This document shows positions 48,855-54,764 of a stretch of DNA of 64,000 nt, piece after piece. A model generated the notes under the pieces. The model did no database searches. It was not told the DNA's origin and worked only from the letters and a program-made list of their open reading frames with translations. Both the position numbers and the translations under genes were made by a program. The stretch is from an uncultured Endomicrobiia bacterium. GTDB lineage: Bacteria > Elusimicrobiota > Endomicrobiia > DTEH01. The stretch lies in assembly GCA_937936785.1 (NCBI GenBank), contig CALDDQ010000001.1, forward strand, positions 1-64,000, written 5' to 3'. Position 1 is the first letter of the stretch, and each line of letters begins with the position of its first letter.

Positions 48855-49739
48855 ATGATAAAGAGTAAGTATTTTTATTATATAATTTTGATTCTTGTAA
48901 TTTTTATAACTTTTTTTAATTTTTTTATACTAAAACCAATTTTTTATACAAAAGAACAAAAATTTTTTCCAAGAATAAATGTTAGTAAAATAGAAATTAC
49001 AGAATCAGAAATAGATCAAAAAATTCAGGAATTAGAAGAAAACATTAAAATATCATCAGCAGATCTAACAAAAAATGTAGATTTAGGCATATACTATTAT
49101 TTAAAAGGTCAAAAATTTTATGATAAAGCAATTAATATATTAGATAACGCATGGCGAATGGGTGCTTTAGATGAAAGAATATTTTATTATTTGGGCAATA
49201 TGTATAGTTTCTTAAAGTTATACAACTTTGCAATTATAGAATATAGAAAGTTTTTAAATAATCATCCAGATGATCTTGAAGTACAAATTCAATTAGCTAA
49301 TACTTACTATTTTGCAAAAAAATTTGATGATGCAATTATGATGTATGAAAACATAATTAATACTGATAAAGAAAATGTTGTTGCAATGACAAATTTAGCA
49401 ACAATTTATTTTGAAAAAGAAAATTATTCAGAAGCACAAAATTTGTTCTTGAAAGTTAAGGAAATATGTAATAAAAAAAATATAATTGAACCCAAAAATG
49501 TTAATTTGTATATAGGTAAGATATATTATTTAAACAAAAATTATTCCTTGGCTTTAGAATATTTTAAAAATGAATTAGATCTTTATCAAGAAAAAAATCT
49601 TGAAGCACAGATTTATTTGGCAAAAACGTATTTTGAATTAAAGGATGATTTTAATACACAACAATATGCAAAAGAAGTATTAAAAATTATTCCTGATAAC
49701 AAAGAAATGAAATTTTTATTATCAAAAATAAAAAAATGA
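48855..49739 (+). CDS. Membrane-anchored TPR protein
   Basis: 294 residues. An N-terminal transmembrane helix (about residues 6-28) is followed by a linker and then tandem TPR units (DKAINILDNAWRMG, YNFAIIEYRKFLNNHPDDLE, FDDAIMMYENIINTDKENV, YSEAQNLFLKVKEI, YSLALEYFKNELDLYQEK), ending in a DNKEMKFLLSK tail. TPR solenoids bind proteins; no partner can be named. It overlaps the next gene by ATGA, so the two are likely coexpressed. Confidence 0.85.
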   Translation: MIKSKYFYYIILILVIFITFFNFFILKPIFYTKEQKFFPRINVSKIEITESEIDQKIQELEENIKISSADLTKNVDLGIYYYLKGQKFYDKAINILDNAWRMGALDERIFYYLGNMYSFLKLYNFAIIEYRKFLNNHPDDLEVQIQLANTYYFAKKFDDAIMMYENIINTDKENVVAMTNLATIYFEKENYSEAQNLFLKVKEICNKKNIIEPKNVNLYIGKIYYLNKNYSLALEYFKNELDLYQEKNLEAQIYLAKTYFELKDDFNTQQYAKEVLKIIPDNKEMKFLLSKIKK

Positions 49740-51253
49740 TTTCAAAAATATATTCTGGAACGGTATATGGCATAGAAGGTTTTTTGATTGAAGTAGAAAT
49801 TGACATTGCAAAAGGATTACCATCTTTTTCAATAGTAGGATTACCGGATGCTGCAGTTAAAGAATCTAAAGAACGTGTTATGGCAGCGATACGTAATTCA
49901 GGGTATGATTTCCCAGCAAAAAAAATTACAGTAAATCTTGCACCCGCAGATTTAAAAAAGGAAGGTGCTGGATTTGACCTGCCAATAGCTATAGGCATTT
50001 TAGTAGCATGTGGCATAGCAAAAAAAGAAAAAATAGAAAATTATTGTATAATAGGAGAACTTGCTTTAGATGGAACGGTAAGGTCAGTGAAAGGTATTTT
50101 ATCATTAGCACTAAAATTAAATAAAAAAAATAAAATGATAATATTACCAGATGAAAATGCTAAAGAAGCTGTTATTGCAAATATTAAAGTTTTTCCTGTC
50201 AAACATTTAAATGATGTGGTAAAATTTTTAAACAATGAACAAGAAATTTTACCTTATAGTGAAGATTTAGAGAAAATATATGATGAAAATTTTTTTTATG
50301 AACATGATTTTTTGGATGTGAAAGGACAACAGTATACAAAACGTGCAATTGAAGTTGCAGCTTGTGGTGGACATAATATTCTAATGGTAGGACCTCCAGG
50401 ATCAGGAAAAACTATGATAGCATCAAGAGTCCCTACTATATTACCAAGACTGACTTTTGAAGAAGCAATTGAAACTACTCGTATTTATTCTGTCGCAGGA
50501 TTGTTAAAATCAGGATTTATTTCCATTAGACCTTTTAGAGCACCACATCATACCATTTCTGATGTAGCACTTGTTGGTGGTGGACAAACACCAAAACCAG
50601 GTGAAATATCTTTAGCACATAATGGAGTTTTGTTTTTAGACGAATTACCTGAATTTGATAGGAATGTTATTGAAGTTTTAAGACAACCGTTGGAAAATGG
50701 AACAATTATTGTTTCAAGAGCAACATTTAAATGTGAATTTCCTGCAAATATTATGTTAATAGCAGCGTGTAATCCATGTCCGTGTGGTTTTTATGGTCAT
50801 CCTAAAAAAGAGTGTGTTTGTACACCATACCAAATTCAAAAATATGTCTCTAAAATATCAGGACCTTTACTTGATAGAATTGACATACATATTGAAGTTC
50901 CACCAGTAGATATTGCAGATTTATCATCTACCACTATGACAGAATCTTCAAAAGATATTAGATTAAGGGTGGAGAATGTTCGTAAAATACAATACAAAAG
51001 ATACAAAAATAAAAAAATATATACTAATTCTCAATTAACTTCAAAATTAATAAAAGAATTTTGTCCAATGACAGATGAAGCAAAAAATATTTTAAAATTA
51101 AGTATTGAAAAACTTGGTCTTTCAGCACGAGCTTATGATAGAATTATTAAAGTTTCAAGAACTATAGCTGATATGGATAATAAAGATGTCATAGATTCTA
51201 TTCACATAACAGAGGCCGTGCAATATCGTAGTATGGATAGGTGGTTAAAATGA
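49736..51253 (+). CDS. comM: YifB/ComM-family AAA+ ATPase
   Basis: 505 residues, standard for this family. ComM is a hexameric helicase that promotes branch migration in natural transformation. N-terminal Lon-like domain (GIEGFLIEVEIDIAKGLPSFSIVGLPDAAVKES; key part GLPSFSIVGLPD), KITVNLAPADLKKEG, then the AAA+ core with Walker A MVGPPGSGKTMIA, APHHTISDVALVGGG, Walker B VLFLDELPEFD, a zinc-type Cys cluster CNPCPCGFYG, and a C-terminal region ARAYDRIIKVSRTIADM. dprA lies 5 kb downstream and pilT 12 kb upstream. Confidence 0.92.
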   Translation: MISKIYSGTVYGIEGFLIEVEIDIAKGLPSFSIVGLPDAAVKESKERVMAAIRNSGYDFPAKKITVNLAPADLKKEGAGFDLPIAIGILVACGIAKKEKIENYCIIGELALDGTVRSVKGILSLALKLNKKNKMIILPDENAKEAVIANIKVFPVKHLNDVVKFLNNEQEILPYSEDLEKIYDENFFYEHDFLDVKGQQYTKRAIEVAACGGHNILMVGPPGSGKTMIASRVPTILPRLTFEEAIETTRIYSVAGLLKSGFISIRPFRAPHHTISDVALVGGGQTPKPGEISLAHNGVLFLDELPEFDRNVIEVLRQPLENGTIIVSRATFKCEFPANIMLIAACNPCPCGFYGHPKKECVCTPYQIQKYVSKISGPLLDRIDIHIEVPPVDIADLSSTTMTESSKDIRLRVENVRKIQYKRYKNKKIYTNSQLTSKLIKEFCPMTDEAKNILKLSIEKLGLSARAYDRIIKVSRTIADMDNKDVIDSIHITEAVQYRSMDRWLK

Positions 51254-54069
51254 CAATGTGGAATAATAACAAAATTGTAATTTTAGTCCCAACATATAAC
51301 GAGTCTGAAAACATAGAGTTACTTATAAAACAGTTAAATGAATCTTTACCAGAGGTAAAAATCTTGATAGTAGATGACAATTCTCCTGATGGAACTTCTG
51401 AGATAGTTAAAAATTTACAACATAAATACAGAAACTTAATTTTAATCACAAGAAAAGAAAATCGTGGTCGAGGTTACGCAGGTATTGAAGGGTTTAAAAA
51501 ATGTTTAGAACTTGGTGCTGAAATAATTGTAGAAATGGATGCTGATTTATCTCATTCTCCGTATGAGATAAACAAAATGATTGAAGAGTTGAAAAATTCT
51601 GATGCTGATATTGTTGTAGGTTCTAGATACATAGAAGGTGGTGAAGATGTTGAAAGAAGTTTCTTAAGAAAACTTATAAGTTTTTTTGCAAGAGTTTATA
51701 TAAATTTTTTTACTGGTATAAATTTAAAAGATATAACATCAGGATTTAAAGTTTATAAAAGTAATGTTATAAAAACTATACTTCCATATTTAAAATCTTC
51801 AGATCCGTTCATTGTTACAGAAGTAAACTTTTTTTCTAAAATAAACAATTTTAAATTTAAAGAAGTTCCAATAAAATTTCACAAACGATATAAAGGAAAA
51901 AGTAAGTTGACTTCAGGCAAACTTATAAAATATTTGTTTAAAGTTGCCAAATTAGTTTGGGATAATTTTGTCTGTGAATCATACAATCTAAGATTCGTTC
52001 AATTTATGTTATTGACTAACATTTTGAGGTTAATGTTAATACCACTTTTTGGTCTAACAGATGACGAAGCACATTATTGGCAATATTCACAATATTTAGA
52101 TTTTTCATACTATGACCATCCACCAATGGTAGGATATATGATATATTTTTTTACAAGAATTTTTGGTAACACATTATACGGTGTTAGGTTACCAGCAGTG
52201 TTTTGTTTTATAATTGCTAGTATTTATTTTTATTTGTTAATCAAAAAAATGTTTAATTCAAAAATTGCTTTTTATTCAGTTATACTTTTAAATTCTGTGC
52301 CAATATTTTTTGTTGGTTCTATAATTACAATTCCTGATGCGTCTCTTGGTATGTTTTGGATGATGTATATGTATTATTTTTATAAATTTGTTAAAACTTA
52401 TAATTACAAAATATTATATTTTTCAGCAACTTTATTAGGTTTCGCACTTTTAAGTAAGTATACTGCATTATTGTTGGTTTTTAGTACTGTAATAATATTT
52501 TTATATAAAAAAGAACTAAAAAAATATTTTTTAAAGAAAGAATTTTATATTTTTTTAAGTATAATTATTATTTTATTTTTACCAGTAATTTTGTGGAATT
52601 TTGCTAATAATTTTGTTTCTTTCAAATACCAGTTTTACCATGGTATGGGAAACAAATTAAATTTTTCTATAAATACATTTTTACAAAATTTTGGTTCTCA
52701 ATCAATTTATTTATCACCCCTGTTGTTTGTCTTTTTATGGTACTATGTTATTACTTTCTGGAAAAAACAAACAACATTTGAAGAAAATTATTTGTTATCG
52801 TTTTCATTGGTAGGTGTTATAGGTTTTAATTTGATAGGGTTTAATAATCAAATATTACCTCACTGGCCAGCAATATCGTACATACCTTTGTTACCAAGTA
52901 TAATTTTTTATTATAAAAATAATTGGCAATATATTTCTTCTATAACAGTTGCATCTTTATTAACAATATCAGTTTTAGTTATAACAATATTTGGTTTGAT
53001 TAAAATACCAAAAAATATTGAAAATGCAGATACTCCGGATAAACTTTTTGGCTGGGACATTGCAGCAAAAGAAACTATTAGGTTTATTTCAGAAAACAAT
53101 AATTTTTTTATACTAACACATAAACATTATACTGCAGGTCAGTTACGGTTTGCACTGGCAAAATATTATCCAAAAAATGAAAAAAATATTCCTAAAGTTT
53201 ATTGTGTTAACGATTATCTTGATCAGTATGATTTTTGGAACAAAGAACTTTGTTCATTAAATGGTATGGATATACTTTTTGTTGTCGAAGGTAGGTTCCC
53301 AATAGATGATATATTTAAAAAATATTCTTTTAAAAATTATAATCTTAAATCTTCAATTAGATTTATTAAAAGTAAAAATTGGCCTTCAAGAGTTTTTGAA
53401 TTTTATTACATAAAAAATTTTAATTGCAAAGAGTTGGCTTCAGAATTAATTCAGTTAGATTATAATAATGTAAATAGCGTGTCTGATTATTTAAATAATT
53501 ATGACAAAAAAATTTTTTTAAAAATAAATAGTTTGTCAGGAAAATTTAAAATTTTAGACTATGCTATGATCATATTTACTTTTTTTGGTGATGGATTGTT
53601 TATAATTCCAGTATCGTTTGTTACATTGTTTCTTATAAATAATTTTAAAATTAGACCAACACTTAATGATTTTTTTGTGTCTTGTATAATATTATTAACA
53701 GGAGGAGTCATAATACAATTTTTAAAAAATTTTTTTAATTTACCACGACCTGTTAGATATTTCACTCCTATGATTATGAACAACCAAGTAAATGTCCGTA
53801 TTTTATTGCAACAACTTGATGTGAATGGTTTTCCATCAGGACACACTTTTACTATATTTTGTTTTGCTACTTTTTTATATTATAAAATAACAAATTTTAA
53901 TAAAACAAGTAAGTTTTGGTTAACTGTTTTATTTTTTACAGTAGCTTTTTTGGTTGGAATAAGTAGAATTTATGTTAGTGCACATTTCCCAAGTGATGTA
54001 TTAGGTGGTATAATTGTTGGAGTTTTTTACACTTACTTTTGTTTAAAGTTTAAAAGATTATTAAGTTAG
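51250..54069 (+). CDS. Three-domain fusion: GT2 polyprenyl-phosphate glycosyltransferase + GT-C transferase + PAP2 phosphatase
   Basis: 939 residues from ATG 51250 (ATGA overlap with comM). Residues about 10-235 are a DPM1/GT2 domain: VLVPTYNESENIELL, VDDNSPDGTS, EMDADLSH and KRYKGKSKLTSGK. Residues about 250-600 are a multi-helix GT-C unit of the ArnT/PMT kind with DDEAHYWQYSQYLDFSYYDHPP (short form DDEAHYWQYS), GVRLPAV and further helices. The last 190 residues are a PAP2 phosphatase with all three signatures: KNFFNLPRP (KX6RP), PSGH in GFPSGHTF, and SRIYVSAHFPSD (SRX5HX3D). A GT2 loads a sugar on polyprenyl phosphate, a GT-C transfers it outside the membrane, and PAP2 proteins dephosphorylate polyprenyl diphosphates or lipid A. 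All three in one chain suggest an integrated lipid-linked sugar cycle, for example for lipid A or glycoprotein; that is inference. Confidence 0.9.
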   Translation: MTMWNNNKIVILVPTYNESENIELLIKQLNESLPEVKILIVDDNSPDGTSEIVKNLQHKYRNLILITRKENRGRGYAGIEGFKKCLELGAEIIVEMDADLSHSPYEINKMIEELKNSDADIVVGSRYIEGGEDVERSFLRKLISFFARVYINFFTGINLKDITSGFKVYKSNVIKTILPYLKSSDPFIVTEVNFFSKINNFKFKEVPIKFHKRYKGKSKLTSGKLIKYLFKVAKLVWDNFVCESYNLRFVQFMLLTNILRLMLIPLFGLTDDEAHYWQYSQYLDFSYYDHPPMVGYMIYFFTRIFGNTLYGVRLPAVFCFIIASIYFYLLIKKMFNSKIAFYSVILLNSVPIFFVGSIITIPDASLGMFWMMYMYYFYKFVKTYNYKILYFSATLLGFALLSKYTALLLVFSTVIIFLYKKELKKYFLKKEFYIFLSIIIILFLPVILWNFANNFVSFKYQFYHGMGNKLNFSINTFLQNFGSQSIYLSPLLFVFLWYYVITFWKKQTTFEENYLLSFSLVGVIGFNLIGFNNQILPHWPAISYIPLLPSIIFYYKNNWQYISSITVASLLTISVLVITIFGLIKIPKNIENADTPDKLFGWDIAAKETIRFISENNNFFILTHKHYTAGQLRFALAKYYPKNEKNIPKVYCVNDYLDQYDFWNKELCSLNGMDILFVVEGRFPIDDIFKKYSFKNYNLKSSIRFIKSKNWPSRVFEFYYIKNFNCKELASELIQLDYNNVNSVSDYLNNYDKKIFLKINSLSGKFKILDYAMIIFTFFGDGLFIIPVSFVTLFLINNFKIRPTLNDFFVSCIILLTGGVIIQFLKNFFNLPRPVRYFTPMIMNNQVNVRILLQQLDVNGFPSGHTFTIFCFATFLYYKITNFNKTSKFWLTVLFFTVAFLVGISRIYVSAHFPSDVLGGIIVGVFYTYFCLKFKRLLS

Positions 54070-54092: not shown

Positions 54093-54764
54093 ATGAAAAA
54101 AACTTTTTTATTTTTAGTTATAATTATTTTTACTACAATAACAATTGCTAAAGAATATGAAGTCGTTAAAGGAGATACTTTATGGAAAATATCTAGAATT
54201 TTTTATAATAACTCTTTTTTGTGGAAAAATATATTTGATGCAAATTTGGATAAGATTAAAAACCCAGACTTAATTTATCCAGGACAAATATTTGTAATAC
54301 CAGATAGTGATGATATGGGAATAAGAGATCAGTTATTGAATAATGACAAAGAGAATGTTTCAAAAGTTGAATCAGAAGTAGAAACAGAAATGTTAAATGA
54401 AAAAAAAGAATATTTTCAAAATAAAATTGAGTATACGTTATCTGAAAAAGAACTATTTATTTATGATGAAACAAAATTTATTGGAGAAATAATTTCTTCA
54501 GAAAGAGAAAATATTTTATTTACTGATGGGGATATAGTATTTTTTAAGATAACAAAAAATGATGTGCCTATTTTTATAGATGAGGTATTGTATGTATCTC
54601 ACAAAGGTCCAACTAAGTATGACTTGACATTTAAAAATATTCCAAATAATGAAGTTATATTATTAGGGAAAATTAAAGTTAAAGAAATTAAAGATAAAGT
54701 TGTAAAATCTATTATAATTCGTTCTTATTCTCCAATAACAGTCGGTGCTTTTATTACAAAATGA
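54093..54764 (+). CDS. LysM-domain envelope protein
   Basis: 223 residues. A signal peptide (FLVIIIFTTITIA) is followed directly by one LysM domain, YEVVKGDTLWKISRIFYNN..NPDLIYPGQIFVIP, that binds peptidoglycan sugars. A charged linker and a beta-rich C-terminal domain of about 100 residues follow (IFIDEVLYVSHKG, KYDLTFKNIPNNEV), similar to the tails of other secreted LysM proteins. No catalytic domain is seen. It forms a tightly packed group with the TPR and NlpC/P60 genes (ATGA overlaps). Confidence 0.85.
   Translation: MKKTFLFLVIIIFTTITIAKEYEVVKGDTLWKISRIFYNNSFLWKNIFDANLDKIKNPDLIYPGQIFVIPDSDDMGIRDQLLNNDKENVSKVESEVETEMLNEKKEYFQNKIEYTLSEKELFIYDETKFIGEIISSERENILFTDGDIVFFKITKNDVPIFIDEVLYVSHKGPTKYDLTFKNIPNNEVILLGKIKVKEIKDKVVKSIIIRSYSPITVGAFITK

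Follow-up and report, generated by a model that had tools for sequence, protein, structure and literature searches.

What brings an enzyme that loads sugar onto a lipid carrier, an enzyme that transfers such sugars and a lipid phosphatase into one polypeptide? This question is raised by a locus in an uncultured Endomicrobiia bacterium (assembly GCA_937936785.1, a 1.56-Mb draft of 25 contigs), where one gene on contig CALDDQ010000001.1 encodes a family 2 glycosyltransferase (GT2), a GT-C membrane glycosyltransferase and a PAP2 phosphatase. We analyzed positions 1 to 64,000 of this contig, the whole stretch of 64,000 nucleotides being called the window, and followed the gene through its class (Endomicrobia, Elusimicrobiota). 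Each of its enzyme kinds is known; the triple fusion, whose origin can be followed step by step through the class, appears to be new. We propose, with a probability of about 0.58, that the fusion is organized around the pool of undecaprenyl phosphate (Und-P): GT2 and GT-C would glycosylate lipopolysaccharide (LPS), and an LpxE-like PAP2 part would recycle undecaprenyl pyrophosphate (Und-PP). The sequences themselves show the domains, motifs, conservation, gene orders and patterns of loss, while we infer the substrates, the sidedness, the acceptor and the benefit of coupling.

A triple fusion conserved in one family

The fusion is real and conserved, and no assembly join is involved. It occurs in all five genomes of family f1 that were examined, at 922–942 residues and 51–57% identity end to end. 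Two of these carriers are separately named metagenome-assembled genomes, SKYB98 and SKYB53 ('Endomicrobia bacterium'), which share with the window the gene order S1-like, TPR, comM, fusion, LysM, TPR, NlpC/P60, dprA and topA. A draft of 25 contigs might invite the suspicion of an assembly or binning artefact; because five genomes share the fusion over its full length, and the neighbors match in two named records, that reading is already refuted and deserves practically no weight.

On the + strand, the frame is free of stops from a GTG at 51241, or an ATG at 51250, to the stop at 54069; the opposite strand carries many stops. All three Pfam domains score far above their gathering thresholds and all three catalytic signatures are complete, as the first-pass annotation of this DNA had described. 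The parts of the gene are as follows.

51250..54069, + strand: triple fusion GT2–GT-C–PAP2, 939 residues (942 when counted from the GTG at 51241)
51280..51780, + strand: GT2 domain of the polyprenyl-phosphate sugar synthase type (like dolichol-phosphate-mannose synthase), residues 11–177, from Pfam and the class profile
51967..51990, + strand: GT2/GT-C junction, about residues 240–247, the site of a stop and a GT-C start codon in relatives
51982..53454, + strand: GT-C unit, about residues 245–735, predicted to have about 11 membrane segments and a periplasmic domain at its C-terminal end
52060..52080, + strand: GT-C signature DDEAHYW, residues 271–277, in the first predicted periplasmic loop (conservation, hydropathy)
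52114..52596, + strand: PMT_2 (GT-C) Pfam match, residues 289–449, 1.8e-32
53467..54066, + strand: PAP2 unit, residues 740–939, with five predicted membrane segments
53725..53751, + strand: PAP2 motif C1, KX6RP, residues 826–834
53833..53844, + strand: PAP2 motif C2, PSGH, residues 862–865
53962..53997, + strand: PAP2 motif C3, SRX5HX3D, residues 905–916

The GT2 part resembles, and is putatively, a polyprenyl-phosphate-sugar synthase. It matches Glycos_transf_2 (PF00535) over residues 11–177 (1.9e-30) and carries DDN at 42–44 and DAD at 97–99, followed by R213 and SKL at 218–220. The class GT2 profile aligns with dolichol-phosphate-mannose synthase 5mlz (5.9e-43) and also matches ArnC structures.

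For the middle region, family and profile evidence bears out the first-pass assignment to GT-C. PMT_2 (PF13231) scores 113 bits against a gathering score of 26.1; nine membrane segments pass the hydropathy threshold, or about 11 when two more predicted helices are counted; and DDEAHYW lies in the loop after the first of them, with D-E-x-H-Y invariant in 22 sequences. This motif and the GT2 motifs DDN and DAD are kept in relatives with small variations. In hhalign, the fusion's GT-C aligns with the class's own ArnT-like proteins at 98% probability, and these match ArnT 5ezm at 1.4e-57 by profile. The window protein has no match to the NCBIfam ArnT equivalog NF009784, which the ArnT-type partner proteins of families f2, f4 and f5 match below the cut-off. 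An AlphaFold2 model of the whole chain, built from a 3-sequence alignment only, reached a mean predicted local distance difference test score (pLDDT) of 48.6 and gave no confirmation of the fold.

The PAP2 part matches PF01569 over residues 812–934 (1.3e-24, 86.8 bits against a gathering score of 27.2) and holds, letter for letter, the signature KX6RP/PSGH/SRX5HX3D given by PMC6581854. Among solved proteins the closest by profile is Aquifex LpxE 6ebu (3.3e-26), an enzyme that acts on lipid A, Und-PP (C55-PP) and phosphatidylglycerol phosphate (PGP) and replaces the C55-PP phosphatases of E. coli (PMC6581854). No match of the window protein to the NCBIfam LpxE equivalog NF007159 was obtained at E 0.01. 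From hydropathy and the positive charge of loops, GT2 is predicted to be cytoplasmic, GT-C to cross the membrane an odd number of times and a periplasmic domain to lie at about residues 584–777; the five PAP2 segments would then turn each of the three PAP2 motifs toward the periplasm.

The conserved neighbors, named from their sequences, are the following; the start of the fusion shares 4 bases with the end of comM, both in the window and in one other locus (L038).

49736..51253, + strand: comM (Mg-chelatase/YifB type), upstream
54093..54764, + strand: LysM protein, downstream
Downstream of the LysM gene: TPR protein, NlpC/P60, dprA and topA

Stepwise origin across the class

In most genomes of the class beyond f1, GT-C and PAP2 form a fusion of about 700 residues, often with GT2 directly upstream. 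The three-domain order is conserved among the f1 genomes. The concern that homologs would be three separate genes, with an assembly join in this one, applies to GT2 in other families and not to GT-C and PAP2, which are already fused there. Among the 248 genomes of the phylum that were searched, the fusion is confined to this class. A contig scan with patterns built from the window protein, which was no broad search beyond the phylum, returned close relatives only. In plasmid records no place covers 80% of the fusion query; the best listed carry genes for GT2 and for family-39 glycosyltransferases but none for PAP2. We found no description of a GT-C–PAP2 fusion in the literature searched.

The families of the class lay out a series of three genes, two genes and one gene. 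ArnT-type GT-C, GT2 and PAP2 are separate genes in f5; an ArnT-type GT-C gene adjoins a separate PAP2 gene in f2, as it does in f4, where GT2 is also present. A GT2 gene followed by a GT-C–PAP2 fusion is found in f3 and f7–f11, and all three are joined in f1. The PAP2 and ArnT-type genes of f2 and f5 occupy the same comM/dprA/topA locus as the f1 fusion. Five genomes of g5, a genus resembling Endomicrobium, have the stop of GT2 immediately before the in-frame start of the GT-C–PAP2 gene, so that loss of one stop would yield the triple chain. We suggest that GT-C joined PAP2 early in the class and that GT2 would have joined later, in f1, through such a loss.

In the PAP2 tree, f1 groups with f2, f4 and f5, and f3 and f7–f11 stand separately; some of these forks lack firm support, and the tree roughly matches that of TopA. 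In the GT-C tree, f1 goes with the f3-type GT-C and not with the ArnT type. The spacing from the YDFW site of GT-C to PSGH is 196–202 residues, with two families at 189, and because it is so nearly constant we favor a single origin of the GT-C–PAP2 junction, which would later have come apart in f2, f4 and f5. Alternatively, GT-C and PAP2 may have been joined independently in f1.

The two enzymes also meet in other arrangements. In one genome (G042, L125:3078-5192) a single frame of 704 residues holds PAP2 and then GT-C, and related PAP2 and GT-C genes adjoin each other in G024, G038 and G058. Families f8 and f10 hold another PAP2 beside a paralogous GT-C, again PAP2 first. Such repeated pairing in both orders, as read from the gene arrangements, suggests a functional link.

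Some loci depart from the common form. Two GT-C–PAP2 frames of 783 and 836 residues (G023:C28 and G191:C96) each have two stretches matching overlapping profile positions 370–435, as if the predicted periplasmic domain had been partially duplicated. In G012 the fusion is apparently split over two contigs (C13 and C21), a GT-C without PAP2 ending on one and GT2 and PAP2 lying together on the other. A tandem pair occurs in G034 (L020), where a 482-residue GT-C lies directly upstream of the GT-C–PAP2 gene.

Retention of PAP2 in genomes that lack BacA

Genus g5 offers a view of which part of the fusion persists. None of its 42 genomes has BacA; in 35 a single PAP2 passes the Pfam cut-off, and it belongs to the fusion's PAP2 family; G019, for example, has no BacA and one PAP2. 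Endomicrobium, including the cultured E. proavitum, was reported to lack BacA, and an alternate phosphatase was proposed without being named (PMC8809381). Our sequence comparisons make the fusion's PAP2 family a candidate for it in these insect-gut symbionts, one hidden behind a glycosyltransferase.

Ten decayed g5 loci were read. The PAP2 motifs are complete in all ten, DEAHYW of GT-C is kept in none, and GT2 was not found in the stretches read around them. G017 and G059 retain a GT-C half as one frame of about 610 residues, minus DEAHYW, the motifs PD and SKY and a portion of its C-terminal domain. G017 also has broken lpxC, lpxK and kdtA beside an intact PAP2, and lipid A therefore cannot be the only substrate of its PAP2; in the published relative Rs-D17, LPS genes are interrupted as well (PMC4505116). 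Since almost every genome of the class has these three genes, their co-occurrence with the fusion discriminates only through G017. Genome reduction thus parts the retained piece of the fusion from the dispensable ones, and the pattern points to a job of the PAP2 part's own, putatively Und-PP recycling, that would outlive both transferases.

A proposed role at the undecaprenyl phosphate pool

In f3, f7, f10 and f11 the gene immediately before GT2 is of the heptosyltransferase family, which points to a role in LPS, as does the ArnT-type partner in f2, f4 and f5. The host genome holds lpxC, lpxK, a Kdo transferase, heptosyltransferase-family genes and an O-antigen ligase. Its LPS cluster (L128, on contig 5 of G000) comprises lpxK, an acyltransferase, two GT-C genes, the O-antigen ligase, two heptosyltransferase-family genes and the Kdo transferase, and a paralogous GT-C is among its genes.

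We propose that the cytoplasmic GT2 would load a hexose onto Und-P, that a separate protein would flip the loaded carrier, and that GT-C would transfer the sugar in the periplasm, most likely to lipid A or the LPS core, freeing Und-P. GT-C enzymes that use a polyprenyl-phosphate sugar release polyprenyl phosphate, the established chemistry of ArnT and PMT, and therefore no phosphatase is needed in that turnover. The periplasm-facing PAP2 would instead turn Und-PP from peptidoglycan and O-antigen assembly into Und-P, possibly acting on the lipid A 1-phosphate as well, as LpxE does. It would thereby feed the same pool without being a step of the GT2/GT-C turnover. What the three sites would have in common is the Und-P pool rather than a single molecule passing all of them, although channeling is possible.

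Several observations weigh against this proposal. The acceptor of GT-C is drawn from gene neighborhood, and no LPS gene adjoins the f1 locus; nor does the sequence give the sugar, the acceptor or the phosphatase substrate. In family f1, to which the window belongs, BacA is present together with another PAP2 that stands alone, and the fused PAP2 is therefore redundant for Und-PP there and could be specialized; in f1 it may be partly so, for example toward lipid A. No PAP2 was recognized in six g5 genomes, including G028 (94% complete), and no BacA either; their genes possibly lie in assembly gaps. One further genome, G173, has a single PAP2 that falls below the cut-off, and the PAP2 frame of G006 has no ATG upstream of the domain. 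Ratios of nonsynonymous to synonymous substitution rates (dN/dS), computed by halves for a decayed pair, look accelerated in both halves and do not separate them.

Among the other explanations, the one we take most seriously is that the fusion is neutral: neighbors would have been joined by stop loss into a chain of three unrelated activities with no functional coupling. The single stop between GT2 and an in-frame GT-C–PAP2 gene in g5 fits this, as do reduced genomes that drop two of the three parts and the PAP2 and GT-C of G012 on different contigs. A junction spacing held at 189–202 residues across the class is harder to reconcile with neutrality, and so are the separate PAP2/GT-C pair of f8 and f10 and its single open frame in G042; we consider a neutral origin possible but not probable. 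Somewhat less likely is a swap of phosphate for sugar on lipid A, in which PAP2 strips the 1-phosphate like LpxE, GT2 makes a polyprenyl-phosphate sugar and GT-C caps the bared position, so that one protein forms a remodeling unit. The last two steps have their model in RgtE, which makes the polyprenyl-phosphate sugar, and RgtF, which caps the bared lipid A position. Such a unit would give GT-C and PAP2 a direct reason to join, a second pair exists in the opposite order, and the reading agrees with the closeness of PAP2 to Aquifex LpxE and with the ArnT-type partner and heptosyltransferase-family neighbors. It sits poorly with the survival of PAP2 in loci whose GT-C has decayed, and in G017, whose lpxC, lpxK and kdtA are broken, and with the missing LpxE equivalog match.

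The first-pass annotation had put forward an entire carrier cycle in one chain, with one carrier molecule loaded, used and dephosphorylated by the same protein. All three activities do touch Und-P, and GT-C and PAP2 both face the periplasm by hydropathy. Yet a GT-C of this type yields Und-P, not Und-PP, the chain contains no flippase, and PAP2 is kept in decayed loci without GT2 and GT-C, so we regard this cycle as improbable; that earlier interpretation is, as a whole, partly supported.

Our preferred reading, a fusion around the Und-P pool, can be extended to a stronger form: the three fused active sites would be one unit tying carrier recycling to glycosylation of LPS or lipid A, and its PAP2 end would be the Und-PP phosphatase of BacA-less Endomicrobium, the last relic of the unit in shrinking symbiont genomes. 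We offer this as a tentative extension that is probably too strong as a whole.

Comparison with known systems

Each part has well-known counterparts. The GT2 domain is like DPM1 and ArnC in matching dolichol-phosphate-mannose synthase and ArnC structures; unlike them, it has no membrane domain of its own and in f1 is joined to GT-C. The middle part resembles GT-C enzymes of the ArnT/RgtF type (PMT_2) by its Pfam match and its alignment to ArnT-like proteins, but differs in having no ArnT equivalog match and in carrying a C-terminal PAP2. The PAP2 part bears the signature of lipid phosphatases such as LpxE, SepP, YbjG and PgpB, with LpxE its best profile match, whereas here it is fused behind a GT-C and falls under the NCBIfam equivalog cut-offs; dual activity on lipid A and C55-PP is known for LpxE (PMC6581854). 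The nearest parallel for the pairing is the LpxT–ArnT complex of Pseudomonas aeruginosa (PMC13142001), in which a PAP2 enzyme and a GT-C enzyme that both work at lipid A bind each other. Unlike the enzyme pair that shares one chain in Endomicrobia, LpxT and ArnT are two proteins; LpxT acts as a phosphotransferase, and its binding is reported to restrain ArnT.

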